From contig JAEUIF010001059.1 in assembly GCA_016795185.1 (NCBI GenBank), positions 1 through 33,070 on the forward strand: a stretch of DNA of 33,070 nucleotides. Reading direction: 5' to 3'. The position numbers were made by a program, and so were the translations under genes. How positions within the stretch are numbered: position 1 is the first letter of the stretch; each line of letters opens with the position of its first letter. Source of the DNA: Planctomycetia bacterium. GTDB lineage: Bacteria; Planctomycetota; Planctomycetia; Gemmatales; Gemmataceae. This document shows, in pieces, positions 1 to 13,250 of the stretch. A model generated the notes under the pieces. It was not told the origin of the DNA. It saw only the letters and a list, made by a program, of their open reading frames with translations, and searched no databases.

Positions 1-362
1 GGCCGGAACCAGATATCGGTTTTGTTCCCCGGGAACTTGAACACACGCGACGGCGCGGCTACATCGACGGGCCGCCCGCGCTCGCCGTCGAGATCGTCAG
101 TCCGGACAGCGTGGAGTGCGACTACATCAAGAAGTATGCCATCTACGAACAAGCGGGCGTCCGCGAATACTGGATCATCGACCCAGACGCGGGAAAGCCA
201 ACTTTCTTTCGGTTACATGGCAAACGCTTCAAGGAAGTGAAGCTGACCAAGCACATCTTCAAGAGTGAAGTCCTGCCGGGATTCACGCTCGATGTGCGCT
301 GGTTGTTCACCGCCGACCGCCCCCGCGCTTTCGCGGTGCTGCAATCCTTGCGGGCGAGATGA
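1..362 (+). CDS. Uma2 family endonuclease, 3' part only
   Basis: The frame is open from base 3 to a TGA at 360-362, so the gene begins before the window. About 119 residues are visible. They include the typical Uma2 (DUF820) core: PDIGFV near the edge, then ALAVEIVSPDS, a KKYAIYEQAGVREYWIIDP segment and a FKSEVLPGFTLDV ending. Uma2 proteins have a PD-(D/E)xK nuclease-like fold. The visible E of AVEIVSP and D of WIIDP lie where the family's acidic residues lie. The biological role of Uma2 proteins is poorly known. They are very numerous in planctomycetes and cyanobacteria. A GTG at 111 is an internal valine codon, not the start, because conserved residues lie upstream of it. The neighbour at 385 is on the opposite strand, so the two genes converge. 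Confidence 0.88.
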   Translation, partial: PEPDIGFVPRELEHTRRRGYIDGPPALAVEIVSPDSVECDYIKKYAIYEQAGVREYWIIDPDAGKPTFFRLHGKRFKEVKLTKHIFKSEVLPGFTLDVRWLFTADRPRAFAVLQSLRAR

Positions 363-384
363 ATGCCGGTGTACCGCACATCGA

Positions 385-7038: not shown

Positions 7039-8841
7039 TTACTTCGGCTTGTTGAAGGGGTCCTTTATCGGCTTGTTGCCCGTCGCGGGCTTGCCAGGAT
7101 TCTTGCGGACTTCCTCGCGCCAGCGCTCCCATTCGGCCGCCCGCTCTTCGCGGTCCTTGTCGGCCATGTCTTGACGGCTGTTCTTGACGCGCAGCTTGCC
7201 GTCCGGCGTCATCACCAGCAGTTCCACATTGGCTGTCTCGGTCACGTCCTTGCTGGTCTTGTCCGGCAGACGGAACGTTTCCGAGATGCGCCCGCCCTGG
7301 AAATCGACCAGGAGGTCTTCCGTCTGGAAGCTGACGGGAATGCCCTTCACCTGCAACGGCTTGACCGGCCCCAGGCCGACCTTGGCCGGGCCGATGGGCA
7401 CCGCGAACGCGAAGCCTTCCTTGTTCGGGAACCAGATCGGCACTTCTACGTTCTCGTTGCGGCCGATGTACTCGCCGGGGCGCACCGGCACGTCGCCGAT
7501 CACCCACTCGCCAACCGGCACCACCGAACGGGCCTGATCCGGGTTCAGCGTGGTGTTTTCCATCCAGCGATGCACCTGCACCATCGGCAGGTCGCGAATG
7601 CTCGGATCGACGCGGACGCGCTGGGTGTACGTGGCCTTGTCCAGCTCGTGAGCGTAAACGTAGGTTTCCTCGGGCAGCGTGATCGTCGCTACCGTGTCCG
7701 ACCAGCCACTGACCAGTTCCTTCACGTCAGCCAGCGACGGATAGGCGACCTCCGCCTTCTTGCCGTAGTTGGGGTTCGCGAGCCGGACCTGGACGCGGTA
7801 CTCATAGGTAAAGCCGGGCTTGGCGGTCACGTCGATGAAGCGCACCAGGCAGAAGTCGGGCAGCACGATTTCCTTGTCATTCGTATTGCCGACTTGGTCC
7901 TTCGGTTCCGGGGCCTTCAGAGCGTTTTCATCGGGCCGAGGGATGTTGCTGAACAGGTCGGTGTCACCACTGAGCTTCCGCTGCAATGGCGTCAGTTCCA
8001 CGCTGACGGGCTTGTTGCCGATCTCGCGCAGCGTGCGATTGAGCTTCGGCAGCTTGGTATCCGGATAGCTGCCGCGCGCCAGGATCGGCCGCGACATCAC
8101 CATGCCGGGGAAGCTCAGCTTTTGCAGGTCCGCCGAATCGGGCTCGGTGCCGACGGCCGATTGCAACAGCGGGCGGTACTCTTTTTCCAGGTCCAGGTCG
8201 TGCCACTTCTCCTTTTCCGCGCCGCCCGGCGCGACCAGCGTGCGCCGCTGGACGTTGAAGCCGAGGAACTTGGGCAGGTTGTTTTCCTTGTCCTTGGCCA
8301 AATCCTTGATTTCCTTCTCGCGCAGCGCCTTGCGGAAGAGCTCCAGCTGGTCCTTGTAGGGGAAGCTGCCGGACACGATGACCAGCCGCTTGGGCGTGAT
8401 GGTCTCGGCCAACTTGGCGCCGGCGGGGATGCGGCCCATGTCGGCCCAGTCCAGCTTCCAATCTACCGTCGGCACCTTGGAATCCATGTCGGCGGCGACG
8501 CCGGGTTGCCCACCGGGGAACCAGGGGTTGCCCGCGCCTTGGCCGGGGATCTGAACCATGTTGCCGGTCATCGCGGCGTAGGCGGCGGCGCGCTGCTTCA
8601 TCCACTCCAGATAACGTTTCTGTTCGGGCGTCAGCTCCGGCCCCCGTTTCTCCGTGGGCAGCAGCACGCCGATGCGCGTCTCCTTGCCGGTGACGTTGAG
8701 CATCAAGCTGCGGACCTGCGCCCGCACCAGGGCCGGCTCGAATTCCACGGGCGTCAGGATCGACGGATTGACGCGCTTGTTGCCTTCCGCCGCGCCGCCG
8801 ATGAAGTTAGGGTTCTTTGTCAAGTATTGCTCGACTGGCAC
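7039..8841 (-). CDS. Conserved planctomycete-type protein, large C-terminal part of an interrupted gene
   Basis: This 600-residue open frame begins at a GTG (8839-8841) that has no ribosome binding site. It is in the same frame as the 78-residue gene upstream (8860-9096). Only the TAG at 8860-8862 and six sense codons separate them, so both are probably one gene of 685 codons plus stop. I do not recognise a named domain. The sequence is soluble-looking and lysine/proline-rich. One part (FIDVTAKPGFTYEYRVQVRLANP) resembles a fibronectin-type beta-sandwich strand pattern, and the C-terminus is charged. With the upstream N-terminal helix, this would be the extracytoplasmic part of a bitopic protein. 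Its position after PilM/PilN- and PilO-like genes suggests a role in the same envelope complex (inference). Confidence 0.75.
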   Translation of the reverse strand: MPVEQYLTKNPNFIGGAAEGNKRVNPSILTPVEFEPALVRAQVRSLMLNVTGKETRIGVLLPTEKRGPELTPEQKRYLEWMKQRAAAYAAMTGNMVQIPGQGAGNPWFPGGQPGVAADMDSKVPTVDWKLDWADMGRIPAGAKLAETITPKRLVIVSGSFPYKDQLELFRKALREKEIKDLAKDKENNLPKFLGFNVQRRTLVAPGGAEKEKWHDLDLEKEYRPLLQSAVGTEPDSADLQKLSFPGMVMSRPILARGSYPDTKLPKLNRTLREIGNKPVSVELTPLQRKLSGDTDLFSNIPRPDENALKAPEPKDQVGNTNDKEIVLPDFCLVRFIDVTAKPGFTYEYRVQVRLANPNYGKKAEVAYPSLADVKELVSGWSDTVATITLPEETYVYAHELDKATYTQRVRVDPSIRDLPMVQVHRWMENTTLNPDQARSVVPVGEWVIGDVPVRPGEYIGRNENVEVPIWFPNKEGFAFAVPIGPAKVGLGPVKPLQVKGIPVSFQTEDLLVDFQGGRISETFRLPDKTSKDVTETANVELLVMTPDGKLRVKNSRQDMADKDREERAAEWERWREEVRKNPGKPATGNKPIKDPFNKPK

Positions 8842-8859
8842 GGGGTCGAGGTCGTGATT

Positions 8860-9096
8860 CTAGACCAGCACATCCGGCAGCGGCACCAGCGGCGCGACGA
8901 GCTTGTTGTCGAGCTGATCGCGGATGTCGCGGTGGCGGTCCTTGATCTGCTTCTCGATGGCAGTCGCGCTCTTGTCCCACGGCACGCCCAGCGCGCCGAA
9001 AGCCATCGCGCCGATCATGACGACCAGCGCCAGGCCGAAGCCGAGCCGTTCACCCTTTTGCAGCAGGAACTGTTGGAAGCCGTTGTTCTTCGCCAT
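8860..9096 (-). CDS. N-terminal membrane-anchor fragment of the same gene
   Basis: This 78-residue frame starts at the ATG at 9094-9096, with GGAGGA about 9 nt upstream. Residues 17-38 form one transmembrane helix (LGFGLALVVMIGAMAFGALGV). A charged helical stretch (IEKQIKDRHRDIRDQLDNK) follows, and the frame ends at a TAG after PLPDVLV. The next codons continue in frame into the 600-residue protein downstream. The good start signal here and the lack of one downstream favour a single gene broken by a nonsense codon. CAG (Gln) to TAG is the simplest change, but this is inference. Otherwise it is a small membrane protein. It belongs to the operon that begins at 13250. Confidence 0.7.
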   Translation of the reverse strand: MAKNNGFQQFLLQKGERLGFGLALVVMIGAMAFGALGVPWDKSATAIEKQIKDRHRDIRDQLDNKLVAPLVPLPDVLV

Positions 9097-9377: not shown

Positions 9378-10856
9378 TCAGCGTTTGTCTACAGTTTCCT
9401 GGGGCGGCTGATAGCGTTCGTACAACGAGGCGACGCAGTGGATGGTTAGCTCGACCAGGGCCGAGGAACCGGGCTCACCGCCGCCGCCCTTCGGTTCAGC
9501 GCCCACGACACGCGGTGCATCCGGATCGCGTTCGACCAGACTGCCGCGGAAGTGCTGCCAGCCCACCTGGGTGATCTGGAAGCGGAACCGCGAACTGGCC
9601 AGCGCCGCGAGCACCTCCGGAATATGGGCCTGATCGACGAGCGCCACCACCGCCAGCGGCACGCGACGCACATGGTCCGTGATGTCGGAATACCGTTCGC
9701 GGGCCAGACCGTTGTCGGTGATCGCCGTGTTCGGCCGGTCGGCGGCCCGGGTGCCATCGGGCGGCGGCGGTATCGCGGCCACGGCGGCGGTGCTGATCTT
9801 GTGCATCTTCAACTTGTCGAAGGTACGGTACGATTGTTCCCCGACCAGCACCTGGTCGATGCGTCGCACCGGCGTGTCGCGCAGTTCGTAGAGTTGCGTC
9901 AGGGACAGGATGTCGTCGGGCCGGTTGGCGAGGTCGAGCTGGAACTGTGCGATTGGCGCATCCTTGCCCGCCAGGATAGTGTCGGCCTCGACCGGCAGCA
10001 CCACCGGAGCGGCGTTGCCTTGGTGCAGTTGCACCTGGAAGAAAATCTTCCCCAGCATCTGGGGCTGCTCGGTAATGTTCTTGATGCGCCCCTGGAGGTA
10101 GTAGCGCGGGCCCATCTCGCCCAGCACCAGGTCGAGTTGCCAGTCGGCGTTCTGGAATTGCTTGCGGTACAGCTCGCCGGGCTTGCGCTCCGTGGGGCCG
10201 TCCACCTTCTTGTAGCGCGCGCAGATGTCGATGGCCTCGCGAAACGCCTTCATCGCCTCGCGCTGGACCCAAACATCTTCCTGGGCCAGCCAGACTTCCT
10301 CGGACGACGGCGGCGCTTGCTTCTTGGCCGACCAGTTGCCCACATGGTTGACGAAGACCTTCTTCCAGCCGCCCTTGAACTGCGTAAACTCGAAGTCGCG
10401 CGTCTGGTCCGGGCCGATCTTGACGTTCTTGAGCCTGAACAGATCGACCATCGCCTCGAACTGCGGGTGGTACATATCGGGGCGGATGTACTCGCTGCAC
10501 AGGTTCACGTCGATGGGGTCGCCGAACTTCAGACCGCCCAGCGCGGCTTGCAGCTTACCGGGCCAGGTGAACAGGTCCTTCTGCATTTCCCAGGACGATT
10601 TCCAGATTTCGTCCTGGCGCTTCTGGAGCGTCGCCTCGCGTTCGAGCAGCGCCTTCATGTCGAGGTCGCCGCGCGGGGGGTTGTTCCCAAAGTTGTCGAG
10701 CTTTTTCAGGTGCTCGTCGAGCTTGCGGCGGCCCTCTGCGGTGCGGCCGGCGGACACCGTCTTCAGCCAGATCATGGTGAAGAACATGACCGGCACGATG
10801 ACGCCGAAGAGAATCCAGAACTGGTTCTTCGCCAGTTTTTCCTTGTTGATGCTCAT
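9378..10856 (-). CDS. Membrane-anchored protein, possibly PilO/GspM-like
   Basis: This 492-residue protein has a short cytoplasmic N-terminus (MSINKEKLAKNQF), one transmembrane helix at about 13-32 (WILFGVIVPVMFFTMIWL), a helical charged stretch (about 35-95) and a long extracytoplasmic region. No named domain is certain. The region from about residue 395 (VRRVPLAVVALVDQAHIPEVLAAL ... FRFQITQVGWQHF) has the beta-alpha-beta feel of the small ferredoxin-like domain of PilO/GspM, and the architecture of anchor, coiled coil and periplasmic domain is the same. The gene follows the PilM-PilN fusion gene on the same strand. The assignment rests mainly on this context, and a family search could change it. 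A clear ribosome binding site was not seen; the gap upstream holds a long inverted repeat. Confidence 0.65.
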   Translation of the reverse strand: MSINKEKLAKNQFWILFGVIVPVMFFTMIWLKTVSAGRTAEGRRKLDEHLKKLDNFGNNPPRGDLDMKALLEREATLQKRQDEIWKSSWEMQKDLFTWPGKLQAALGGLKFGDPIDVNLCSEYIRPDMYHPQFEAMVDLFRLKNVKIGPDQTRDFEFTQFKGGWKKVFVNHVGNWSAKKQAPPSSEEVWLAQEDVWVQREAMKAFREAIDICARYKKVDGPTERKPGELYRKQFQNADWQLDLVLGEMGPRYYLQGRIKNITEQPQMLGKIFFQVQLHQGNAAPVVLPVEADTILAGKDAPIAQFQLDLANRPDDILSLTQLYELRDTPVRRIDQVLVGEQSYRTFDKLKMHKISTAAVAAIPPPPDGTRAADRPNTAITDNGLARERYSDITDHVRRVPLAVVALVDQAHIPEVLAALASSRFRFQITQVGWQHFRGSLVERDPDAPRVVGAEPKGGGGEPGSSALVELTIHCVASLYERYQPPQETVDKR

Positions 10857-11012: not shown

Positions 11013-13250
11013 TCACTGCTGGGCGACGGCCTTCAGGTCCTCGTCCGACGGCGTCGGCTCCTTCCAGATGAAGTAGACGACGAACTCGGTACGGACGCTG
11101 CGGCCGTCGCTCTTGGGCGGTTCCTTGGCACCAGGCCCGCCGCCGGGCAGTGCGTCGCGCTGGCGGAAGCCGACGTCAATGTTCGGCAGCGGACGCCAGC
11201 GGGTGCGGTCGCGGCCGACGATGATCGGCTGGTCGCCGCGGTTCGGCCCAAATTCCGGGACCACCACGTCGGCCTGGTTCGGATTGCGCGGCTTGTTGCC
11301 GGTGGCCAGTTCGTACAGCTCGCTGCGGTTAATCAACTCGAACGAACCCTCGACGTGGTTCTGCACCCACTTGTAGCGCAGCAGCACGACATGGCTGACC
11401 TTGCCGCTGATCGGGTCGATCGGCTTGGACGGATCGGGCTTGGGTTCCGTGCGCTGGCGGGTGGCCAGGTTTTCGATCAAGGTATCGACGATGAACTTGC
11501 GCTGGTCGCGGTGATTGGTGTAGCCGCGCAGCTCGACGATCCAGCCCGCGCCGGTGGGCGGCTTCTCCTGGTCGTCCTTGGGCATGCTGTCCAGGACCTT
11601 GTTGGTGTCCTTGAGGCGGTTGAAGTAGGCGGCCAGGTCGTCGCAGTAGAGGGCATTGCAAGATTCGAGGTTGATGAGCACCAAATCCTCATCATCCACG
11701 CTCTGCGTCTGCCCCTTGCTCACGGCTTGCTGCGCCAGAAAGCGGGCATAGGCCGCCTTGCCCTTTTCGCCATAGGCGGCCTTCTGCCGGTCCGTCAGGT
11801 TGCCGAGGTCGGGGCGCGGCAAGCACTCGTTGATGTGCTTGTTGAGCATCAGCCAGTTGACGCGCTCTTCCTGGCCCGCCACCACGCTGCGCACCAGCTT
11901 CTTGAGCTGATCGACTTCCTGGGCCTTGCTCTGGTAGGTTTTGTTGCCGTGCTCGGCCGATTCGATGGCTGGCTTGCCGAAGTTCTTCTGCGCGTCGCGG
12001 ATGACCTCGCTGGCGACGGCGTCGTGCGACAGGCGCTCGCCGAAGGCCAGCGCGCCGGCACCGACCAGCAGCAGGGCGGCGGCGGCGACAGCCCACGGCT
12101 TCTTGCTGCGCACCAGGCGCTCGACGCGAATCTCCTCGGGCAGCAGGTTGGTCCGCAACTTGGCGAGGCCCAGCCCTTGCAGGGCCAGCCCATAGACCAC
12201 GCCCATGCTCAGCGCGTTGTCGCTGAACAGCGGGGCAGCCGTGACGTTGGCCCCTTCCAGCCGCAGGAACTTGCCAAGCTTGCGCACGTCCATTTGCAGC
12301 TTTTCATTGAGGTACTTCTGCAAGCCGGGCAGCCGGAACGCCCCGCCCATGCCCACGAGGTACTGGATGTGCGCGTCGCGCTGGCTGTTGGTGAAAAACG
12401 ACAACGATTTCTGCACTTCATTGACGAACTCGTTCAGGTCGGCCCGCAGCGCCAGCAGGATGCGCTTCAGGTCGGGCGACTTGGTCGCGTTGCGCTTCAG
12501 GTGCTCGGCCTTGGCGAAGGTGTACTTGAACTCCTTTGTCAGGGCGCGGGTGAAGCGGTTGCCGCCGATGGGAATCGAGCGCTGCCAGATGACGCGGTTG
12601 CCGTCGGTGATGACCAGGTTCGAGGTTTCCACGCCGATGTCCAGCGCGACCACGCATTCCTTCTTCTTGCCCTCGCTTTCCGGGGCGGCAGTGGAAGTGG
12701 CGTCCTGCTTGAGCAGGTCGTAGGAGACGAAGTTGCACAGCGCCAGGGGCGCCATCTGCACCACGTCCACCTCGATGCCGATTTCCTGGAAGGGCTGCAA
12801 GGCGCGTTGCACGTTCTCGCGCTTGATGGCGAAGAGGCCAATCTCGGTTTCCATCGCGAAGCCGTCGGCCACCACGCCGGAACCGATCTTCTGGAAATCC
12901 CAGACGACTTCCTCCAGCGGGAACGGAATCTGCTGCTTGGCCTCGAACTTGACGATGTCGCTGATCTTCTTTTCCTCGACCGGCGGCAGCTTGACGAAGC
13001 GCGCCAGGCCGCTTTGCCCGGAGACGCACATGGCGACCTTGTCGCCCCGCAGCTGGTTCCGTTTCAGGAACTTCTCCAGCGCTTCGCGGGTCAAAAGGTC
13101 AGGGTCGGCGTCGGGCTGACTGAGGATTTTGGGATGCTCGACGAACTCGAAGGCGGTGGCCACGGCCACGCCGTTACGGTTTTCCAGGCGCAGCGCCTTG
13201 AGGGCGCACTGGCCGATTTCGATTCCCCACGCACCCGGTTGCGTTGGCAT
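11013..13250 (-). CDS. PilM-PilN fusion protein (GspL-like architecture), type IV pilus/type II secretion platform
   Basis: This is a 745-residue protein. Residues 5-360 are a PilM-type actin-like (SHS2/FtsA) domain: GIEIGQCALKALRL, VSGQSGLARFVKLP, VKFEAKQQIPFPLEEVVWDF, VALDIGVETSNLVI and LVGMGGAFRLPGL match PilM segments. Residues 367-373 read TNLLPEE, the motif by which PilN normally binds PilM. A transmembrane helix at about 386-403 follows, then a long extracytoplasmic part with a coiled region, a predicted PilN-like domain near GWIVELRGYTNHRDQRKFIV, and a basic tail. In other bacteria PilM and PilN are separate, whereas GspL joins the two. The start is the ATG at 13248-13250, with GGGGAGAG upstream. 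It is the first gene of an operon running to 7039. It probably couples a cytoplasmic ATPase to an envelope machine. Confidence 0.85.
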   Translation of the reverse strand: MPTQPGAWGIEIGQCALKALRLENRNGVAVATAFEFVEHPKILSQPDADPDLLTREALEKFLKRNQLRGDKVAMCVSGQSGLARFVKLPPVEEKKISDIVKFEAKQQIPFPLEEVVWDFQKIGSGVVADGFAMETEIGLFAIKRENVQRALQPFQEIGIEVDVVQMAPLALCNFVSYDLLKQDATSTAAPESEGKKKECVVALDIGVETSNLVITDGNRVIWQRSIPIGGNRFTRALTKEFKYTFAKAEHLKRNATKSPDLKRILLALRADLNEFVNEVQKSLSFFTNSQRDAHIQYLVGMGGAFRLPGLQKYLNEKLQMDVRKLGKFLRLEGANVTAAPLFSDNALSMGVVYGLALQGLGLAKLRTNLLPEEIRVERLVRSKKPWAVAAAALLLVGAGALAFGERLSHDAVASEVIRDAQKNFGKPAIESAEHGNKTYQSKAQEVDQLKKLVRSVVAGQEERVNWLMLNKHINECLPRPDLGNLTDRQKAAYGEKGKAAYARFLAQQAVSKGQTQSVDDEDLVLINLESCNALYCDDLAAYFNRLKDTNKVLDSMPKDDQEKPPTGAGWIVELRGYTNHRDQRKFIVDTLIENLATRQRTEPKPDPSKPIDPISGKVSHVVLLRYKWVQNHVEGSFELINRSELYELATGNKPRNPNQADVVVPEFGPNRGDQPIIVGRDRTRWRPLPNIDVGFRQRDALPGGGPGAKEPPKSDGRSVRTEFVVYFIWKEPTPSDEDLKAVAQQ

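Follow-up and report, generated by a model that had tools for sequence, protein, structure and literature searches.

A probable natural PilM-PilN fusion as stator of a type IV filament machine in the Planctomycetia

The fused gene and its PilM head

We analysed a stretch of 33,070 nucleotides (the window: contig JAEUIF010001059.1 of assembly GCA_016795185.1, family Gemmataceae, class Planctomycetia) and in it a gene that, with good confidence, encodes a natural fusion of PilM and PilN, in which the ATP-binding stator on the cytoplasmic side of a type IV filament machine is continuous with its partner in membrane and periplasm. The gene heads an operon on the minus strand (Table 1). Its third-position GC is 0.89, similar to that of adjacent genes; the long plus-strand frames overlapping the operon were rejected as shadow frames by the same measure. 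A first-pass annotation from the sequence alone had proposed a natural fusion in which the docking motif of PilN is covalently tied to PilM, and this is borne out: a single conserved frame holds a complete PilM, TNLLPEE, a membrane helix and an outer part of about 340 residues beyond that helix.

Table 1. Positions of the fusion gene, its parts and the two genes that follow it in the window
Feature	Position	Strand	Residues or size	Basis or remark
Fusion gene PilM-PilN	11013..13250	minus	745 aa	Open reading frame with ATG start
PilM domain (actin-like, FtsA-type)	12177..13226	minus	9-358	PF11104, TIGR01175, fold match
TNLLPEE, PilN docking motif in linker	12132..12152	minus	367-373	Conservation, 5eou alignment
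Single membrane helix	12036..12098	minus	~385-405	Hydrophobic stretch, inside model helix 372-412
Coiled helices, PilN-like stalk	11823..12008	minus	~415-476	Model helices 415-456 and 460-476
PilN-like ferredoxin-type domain	11064..11672	minus	~527-729	Predicted strands and helices; best VIA-align row 4bhq_B
Low-confidence insert in PilN-like domain	11121-11288	minus	~655-710	Predicted structure
g2	9378..10856	minus	492 aa	N-terminal membrane helix; next gene of the conserved order
g3	7039..9096	minus	685 codons	Third gene of the conserved order

The profile searches proposed earlier returned PilM matches over their cut-offs: PF11104 (PilM_2) over residues 9-358 at E 9e-38 and 130.4 bits (cut-off 27, hmmscan), and TIGR01175 (pilM) at 160.6 bits (cut-off 133). 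A genome-wide profile search gave the same span, and this is the sole PilM match in the genome. The closest PDB sequences are the PilM proteins of Myxococcus, Thermus and Pseudomonas, and VIA-align of the full model yields Z 33.4 with Thermus PilM 2ych_A. The best-scoring NCBIfam model is that of the Akkermansia protein Amuc_1101 (Amuc_1101_fam, NF045709), with 227 bits over 54-478, far short of its cut-off of 650; by these scores the window protein is a relative and not an equivalog of Amuc_1101.

For conservation we fetched 46 relatives, all out of named genomes: three are verrucomicrobial and 43 are of planctomycete type, some few of these with other labels among metagenome-assembled genomes. 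With the window these make a 47-row alignment of 44 planctomycete and three verrucomicrobial rows. G13, K18 and G206 of the PilM head are invariant, and it follows from the sequence alignment with PDB entries that K18 would be the ATP lysine, counterpart of Thermus K26 as reported in PMC6325625.

Docking motif and outer part

A PilN groove motif, NLLP, stands ahead of a single membrane helix, as in PilN itself. L369 and P371 are invariant in the 47 rows, and position 368 is N in 44 and T in three. The docking motif is kept in all 44 planctomycete rows, where the pentamer reads TNLLP (35), VNLLP (3), VTLLP (3) or TNLVP (3). The spacing from G354 to the motif is equal in 44 of the 47 rows, the other three having 7 to 11 extra residues ahead of the motif.

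The sequence alignment with 5eou, a chain of PilM plus PilN1-12, extends through NLLP, and Foldseek with the full model ranks 5eou_B first. VIA-align superposes the model on 5eou_B with Z 33.1 over 340 residues (root-mean-square deviation, rmsd, 3.3), range 5..372 on 10..366, which runs past the motif; with PilN-free PilM (5eoy, 5eox, 5eq6) Z is 27.2-28.1, rmsd 4.6-4.7, and the match ends at 360-361. As modelled, the fusion protein is closest to PilN-bound PilM. Confidence by the predicted local distance difference test (pLDDT) averages 82.9 over the full model; residues 361-371 are coil, with block means of 94 for 361-370 and 90 for 371-380. Docking in cis, with the NLLP segment held in the groove of the head of the same chain, is the most likely arrangement, because this linker coil has a pLDDT unusually high for a free linker and because the superposition on 5eou_B continues past the motif. 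Residues 365-375 lying away from the groove, the outcome that the first-pass annotation had named as fatal to its proposal, was not found in the structure prediction. As a caution, the docking model is a single-chain prediction, and of the aligned range only the two end residues are given.

The outer part was compared by hhalign between sets from which near-copies and short or out-of-frame rows were left out, the E-values being those of single pairs and not of a database. Verrucomicrobial tails match stand-alone PilN at 99.3% over 162 columns, and still at 95.7% when motif and helix are removed. Window-type tails match the verrucomicrobial tails at 98.2% and stand-alone PilN at 95.7% over 109 columns, from the motif through the stalk; control comparisons of the window-type tails gave 5% (PilO) and 34% (Amuc_1100-like). 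The Pfam PilN family PF05137 matched five of 27 verrucomicrobial tails at E<=0.1 (best 2e-5) and one of 45 rows of a mainly planctomycete set (E 1e-4). A model of residues 394-744 (mean pLDDT 80.4) consists of long helices, a strand-helix-strand-helix-strand unit, the low-confidence insert and a last strand. When 132 of its Foldseek candidates were superposed by VIA-align, the periplasmic domain of Thermus PilN, 4bhq_B, came first (Z 5.4, 90 of 109 residues, rmsd 3.4), ahead of an unrelated long-helix row (5.2) and the rest (<=4.2).

Several results weigh against a PilN identity for this part. Once motif and helix are removed, comparison of the window-type outer domain with the PilN profile yields no match (0.4%); no Pfam family, PF05137 included, is matched by the window tail; the profile match to Myxococcus PilN in 3jc8 is weak (E 0.097); Foldseek on the outer domain found nothing at E<=0.001; and Z 5.4 to Thermus PilN is modest. 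Taken together, the profile comparisons argue strongly that the outer part of the verrucomicrobial relatives is PilN with expanded loops, and the same is probable, with moderate evidence, for the window type. The first-pass annotation would have been undone by a lack of PilN similarity beyond the helix; such similarity is present, at moderate strength only in the window protein itself. It was also right that the outer part is longer than PilN; the extra length comes mainly from insertions, above all that at residues ~655-710, and need not be another module.

Distribution, neighbours and origin

PilM_2 is present in all 79 sampled genomes of the class, and by hand count 78 have it in an open frame of 708-1069 residues. 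The exception, a genome in three contigs (G410), has PilM at G410:C1:5476274-5477055 in two frames of 270 and 338 residues. Since 78 of the 79 carry PilM in a long open frame, the fusion is not an assembly accident. PF05137 was found in 21 of the 79 class genomes and in none of 17 sampled from the family of the window; PilO, by Pfam, was found in 15 of 39 and none of ten, respectively. With no separate PilN match among the 17, the fused chain probably does the jobs of both PilM and PilN.

Twenty-five of the 79 genomes also carry a PilM frame of 340-470 residues (hand count), and in eight of nine fetched examples (L140 being the exception) the next gene encodes a separate PilN-like protein with an xDFLP motif. 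This canonical PilN of the class (L131-L136, L138, L139) has xDFLP, for example IDFLP, instead of NLLP, and belongs to a second PilM/N/O set with its own motif variant. A further paralogue, of 870 residues (L137, G121:C10:1653500-1658500), is a long-branch sister of the fused planctomycete clade; frames of 859-885 residues resembling it occur in other genomes of families f3 and f4. Across the phylum PilM_2 occurs in 388 of 392 sampled genomes. Among the 30 best-scoring of those loci, 29 stop 2-8 residues past PilM, and beside 22 of these lies a separate, motif-bearing PilN; the remaining one (L097) has a longer tail that lacks the motif. A search of plasmids for fused homologues gave matches to the PilM part only, in five records, none covering >=80% of the query.

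Outside the phylum, NF045709 was found in 82 of 87 Verrucomicrobiota genomes, over its cut-off in eight, and in 71 of the 87 (count by eye) it reaches at least 250 bits in frames of 555-697 residues. In the 33 rows fetched from Verrucomicrobiota (L066-L068, L101-L130) PilM is continued by 204-345 residues in total, which include motifs such as CPIEINLLPP and a helix. In the 27 tails aligned, the middle leucine and the proline are invariant and other positions vary; INLLP occurs in nine, and in Akkermansia-type rows the motif is degenerate (INLEP or IDLEP). In the verrucomicrobial locus L102 the fusion is followed by Amuc_1100 (PDB 6lad, E 5e-177). Akkermansia-type Amuc_1101 (MUL2B), followed by Amuc_1100, belongs to the same fused group. 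A planctomycete-specific machine, one of two possibilities raised at first pass, fails because Amuc_1101-type proteins share the fusion, which is the rule in Verrucomicrobiota as well (the 71 genomes above). The MUL2 locus has been tied to glycan attachment in Akkermansiaceae, with MUL2B described as 'a PilM protein' (Wilkie et al., PMC13174399), and according to PMC4960237 the secretin Amuc_1098 is abundant in the outer membrane of Akkermansia.

The phylogeny of the PilM part, also proposed at first pass, gave two trees that agree with a placement of all fused rows on one side. Tree 1 has 88 PilM domains, with the fused planctomycete rows thinned to 22; left out were L097, L141, L142, L117, the near-identical Akkermansia-type L103-L107 and the truncated L053 and L064. 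Planctomycete fused rows (98/93), verrucomicrobial fused rows (94/95) and canonical rows of other classes (100/100) each fall on one side of a branch. In tree 2, with 70 rows (L140, L137, L135 and about half of the canonical other-class rows left out), all 49 fused rows lie on one side, with a value of 90 by the Shimodaira-Hasegawa-like approximate likelihood ratio test (SH-aLRT). These trees fit, but do not establish, a single origin of the fusion in the Planctomycetes-Verrucomicrobia-Chlamydiae (PVC) group.

Fusion gene and g2 stand in this order in 30 of the 43 planctomycete loci, nearly all then followed by g3; of the 13 loci lacking g2, ten stop no more than about 630 bases past the fusion gene, and three (L061-L063) have room for it. 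By hhalign g2 matches the Amuc_1100-like family at 84% over 80 N-terminal columns, and its C-terminal part alone at 34%, which is suggestive only of a candidate PilO/Amuc_1100 counterpart; its one match in the PDB by sequence (E 1.6) was taken as chance. Homology of g3 to Amuc_1099 found no support (hhalign 1%). The g3 frame contains an in-frame TAG at 8860-8862, 78 codons in, at a place that is a poorly conserved linker in relatives; it may be a sequencing error, decay or a split gene. The Amuc_1102-, 1100-, 1099- and secretin-type genes of one verrucomicrobial locus (L066), as single queries, found no match in the 43 planctomycete loci, and the MUL2 order 1102-1101-1100-1099 plus secretin was not seen there, only the fused gene, g2 and g3.

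The window also holds hemC, kinases and others. From 3980 to about 5300 on the minus strand lies a proline-rich protein with a membrane helix and, by eye, an LptA/OstA-like stretch; the longer frame there has no Pfam match. Elsewhere in the genome are PilB/GspE-type ATPases with MshEN domains, two PilT-family ATPases over cut-off and five secretin matches. One PilB/GspE-type ATPase (L010, G000:C1485) has an N-terminal PilZ before MshEN, a possible cyclic di-GMP input in the motor. A giant secretin of at least 2059 residues with ten Secretin_N stretches (L147, G000:C1367, 1563-7739) runs off its contig and may fit the wide planctomycete periplasm; a second giant secretin frame (L146, G000:C901, 279-5774), of 1832 residues, has a C-terminal secretin domain and, by eye, a tetratricopeptide-like stretch that Pfam does not recognise.

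Proposed machine and known systems

In the proposed mechanism, the actin-like head would bind ATP and the assembly or retraction ATPase, while the tethered NLLP segment would sit permanently in the groove of its own head and hold it in the PilN-bound shape. Motion would pass through the membrane helix, the coiled stalk and the ferredoxin-like domain to a PilO-like partner, probably g2. The fusion would fix the PilM:PilN ratio at 1:1 and abolish the free PilM state. PilM docks the motor ATPase (as reported in PMC11656802), and Thermus PilM stimulates it only when PilN-bound (as reported in PMC6325625); by analogy, a natural fusion would keep the stimulating state for good. A point against the proposed machine is that no pilin, PilB, PilC or secretin gene was recognised beside the operon.

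Other readings of the gene were weighed. An artefact of assembly or annotation might be suspected in a metagenome-assembled genome of 9.5 Mb in 1500 contigs, but 78 of 79 class genomes show this architecture, as do complete chromosomes among the relatives (L048, L059), and the probability of an artefact is negligible. That the protein is GspL of a type II secretion system, the pilus reading being wrong, would agree with the one ATPase of the genome that passes the GspE cut-off. We consider GspL very improbable all the same: the T2SSL family has no match to the window protein at E<=1 and none over its cut-off in 39 class genomes, TIGR01175 is over cut-off, the NLLP motif and PilM-type head are kept, and no type II secretion gene (GspM, GspE or others) was recognised among the neighbouring genes. 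GspL is not among the structure rows listed by VIA-align, which carries no weight either way. The fusion is not GspL; it repeats the GspL solution within the PilM lineage. The other possibility raised at first pass, an independent GspL-like solution, thus stands as to the principle, with independence from GspL indicated by the missing T2SSL matches.

Two further alternatives concern docking and origin. The NLLP segment could occupy the groove of a neighbouring copy, giving a ring of heads by strand exchange; known systems form an oligomeric machine, by the account in PMC6325625, and the three rows with extra residues ahead of the motif would allow for it. The constant short spacing in the other 44 rows, the confidence of the segment in a single-chain model and the superposition on one 5eou chain through residue 372 make docking in trans quite unlikely, and we favour docking in cis. 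Separate fusions in planctomycetes and verrucomicrobia are somewhat easier to entertain, as support for the branch uniting the fused rows is less than strong (SH-aLRT 90 in tree 2, the thinned one, and 85/30 for the canonical side in tree 1); still, each tree agrees with a placement of the fused rows on one side, the join occupies the same point in both proteins and their tails match (98.2%, above), so that we regard convergence as rather unlikely beside a single origin.

Dextran-binding fibres have been described in G. obscuriglobus and, at crateriform structures, in P. limnophila (PMC5394234). By analogy, the fused operon might correspond in planctomycetes to the MUL2 machine of Akkermansia and provide the motor base for the dextran-binding fibres at crateriform structures, in a PVC-wide branch of type IV filaments with permanently docked PilM-N dedicated to polysaccharide capture and import; we think this proposal as a whole unlikely and offer it as speculation. 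As a single conserved gene present almost throughout the genomes sampled from the class, the fusion offers a way to test what drives the polysaccharide-binding fibres of planctomycetes and, more widely, a handle on fibres and sugar-uptake machines that are poorly understood in planctomycetes and in related verrucomicrobia. In the openly licensed literature we found no 'PilM-PilN fusion' wording and no title or abstract on such a fusion in the PVC group; an earlier notice is possible.

Among known systems, GspL/PulL of type II secretion has PilM-like and PilN-like parts in one chain (as reported in PMC10191384 and PMC4471445, the latter giving structural parallels). The window protein differs from it in having no T2SSL sequence match, a head that scores as PilM and no type II secretion operon. 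This indicates that PilM and PilN were joined outside the type II secretion lineage as well; the joined chain is the sole form found in a whole family, so that a cycle of free PilM and PilN would not be needed for the machine there.

Amuc_1101/MUL2B and its verrucomicrobial relatives share with the window protein PilM, an NLLP-like motif, a helix and a PilN-like tail, followed by a one-helix protein (Amuc_1100 in Akkermansia, g2 in the window), whereas the MUL2 secretin and Amuc_1102 of Akkermansia were not found in the planctomycete loci. Amuc_1101, in print a PilM protein, may accordingly be a PilM-PilN chain with Amuc_1100 in the PilO position.

With PilM and PilN of type IVa pili (Thermus 2ych, 4bhq; Pseudomonas 5eou; Myxococcus 3jc8) the window protein shares the PilM head (Z 33), the NLLP peptide, one helix and a coiled stalk, and probably the ferredoxin-like end domain of PilN; it differs in being one chain, with long inserts in the outer domain, in a sampled family without separate PilN or PilO by Pfam. 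The nearest likeness in construction is to the engineered PilM:PilN1-12 chimera of 5eou, in which the PilN N-terminus is likewise joined to the PilM C-terminus. That chain was made in the laboratory with 12 PilN residues (entry title), whereas the window protein is natural and carries a whole PilN-like part; it thus makes of a laboratory chimera a natural experiment in which to ask if the motor is switched by the binding of PilN.
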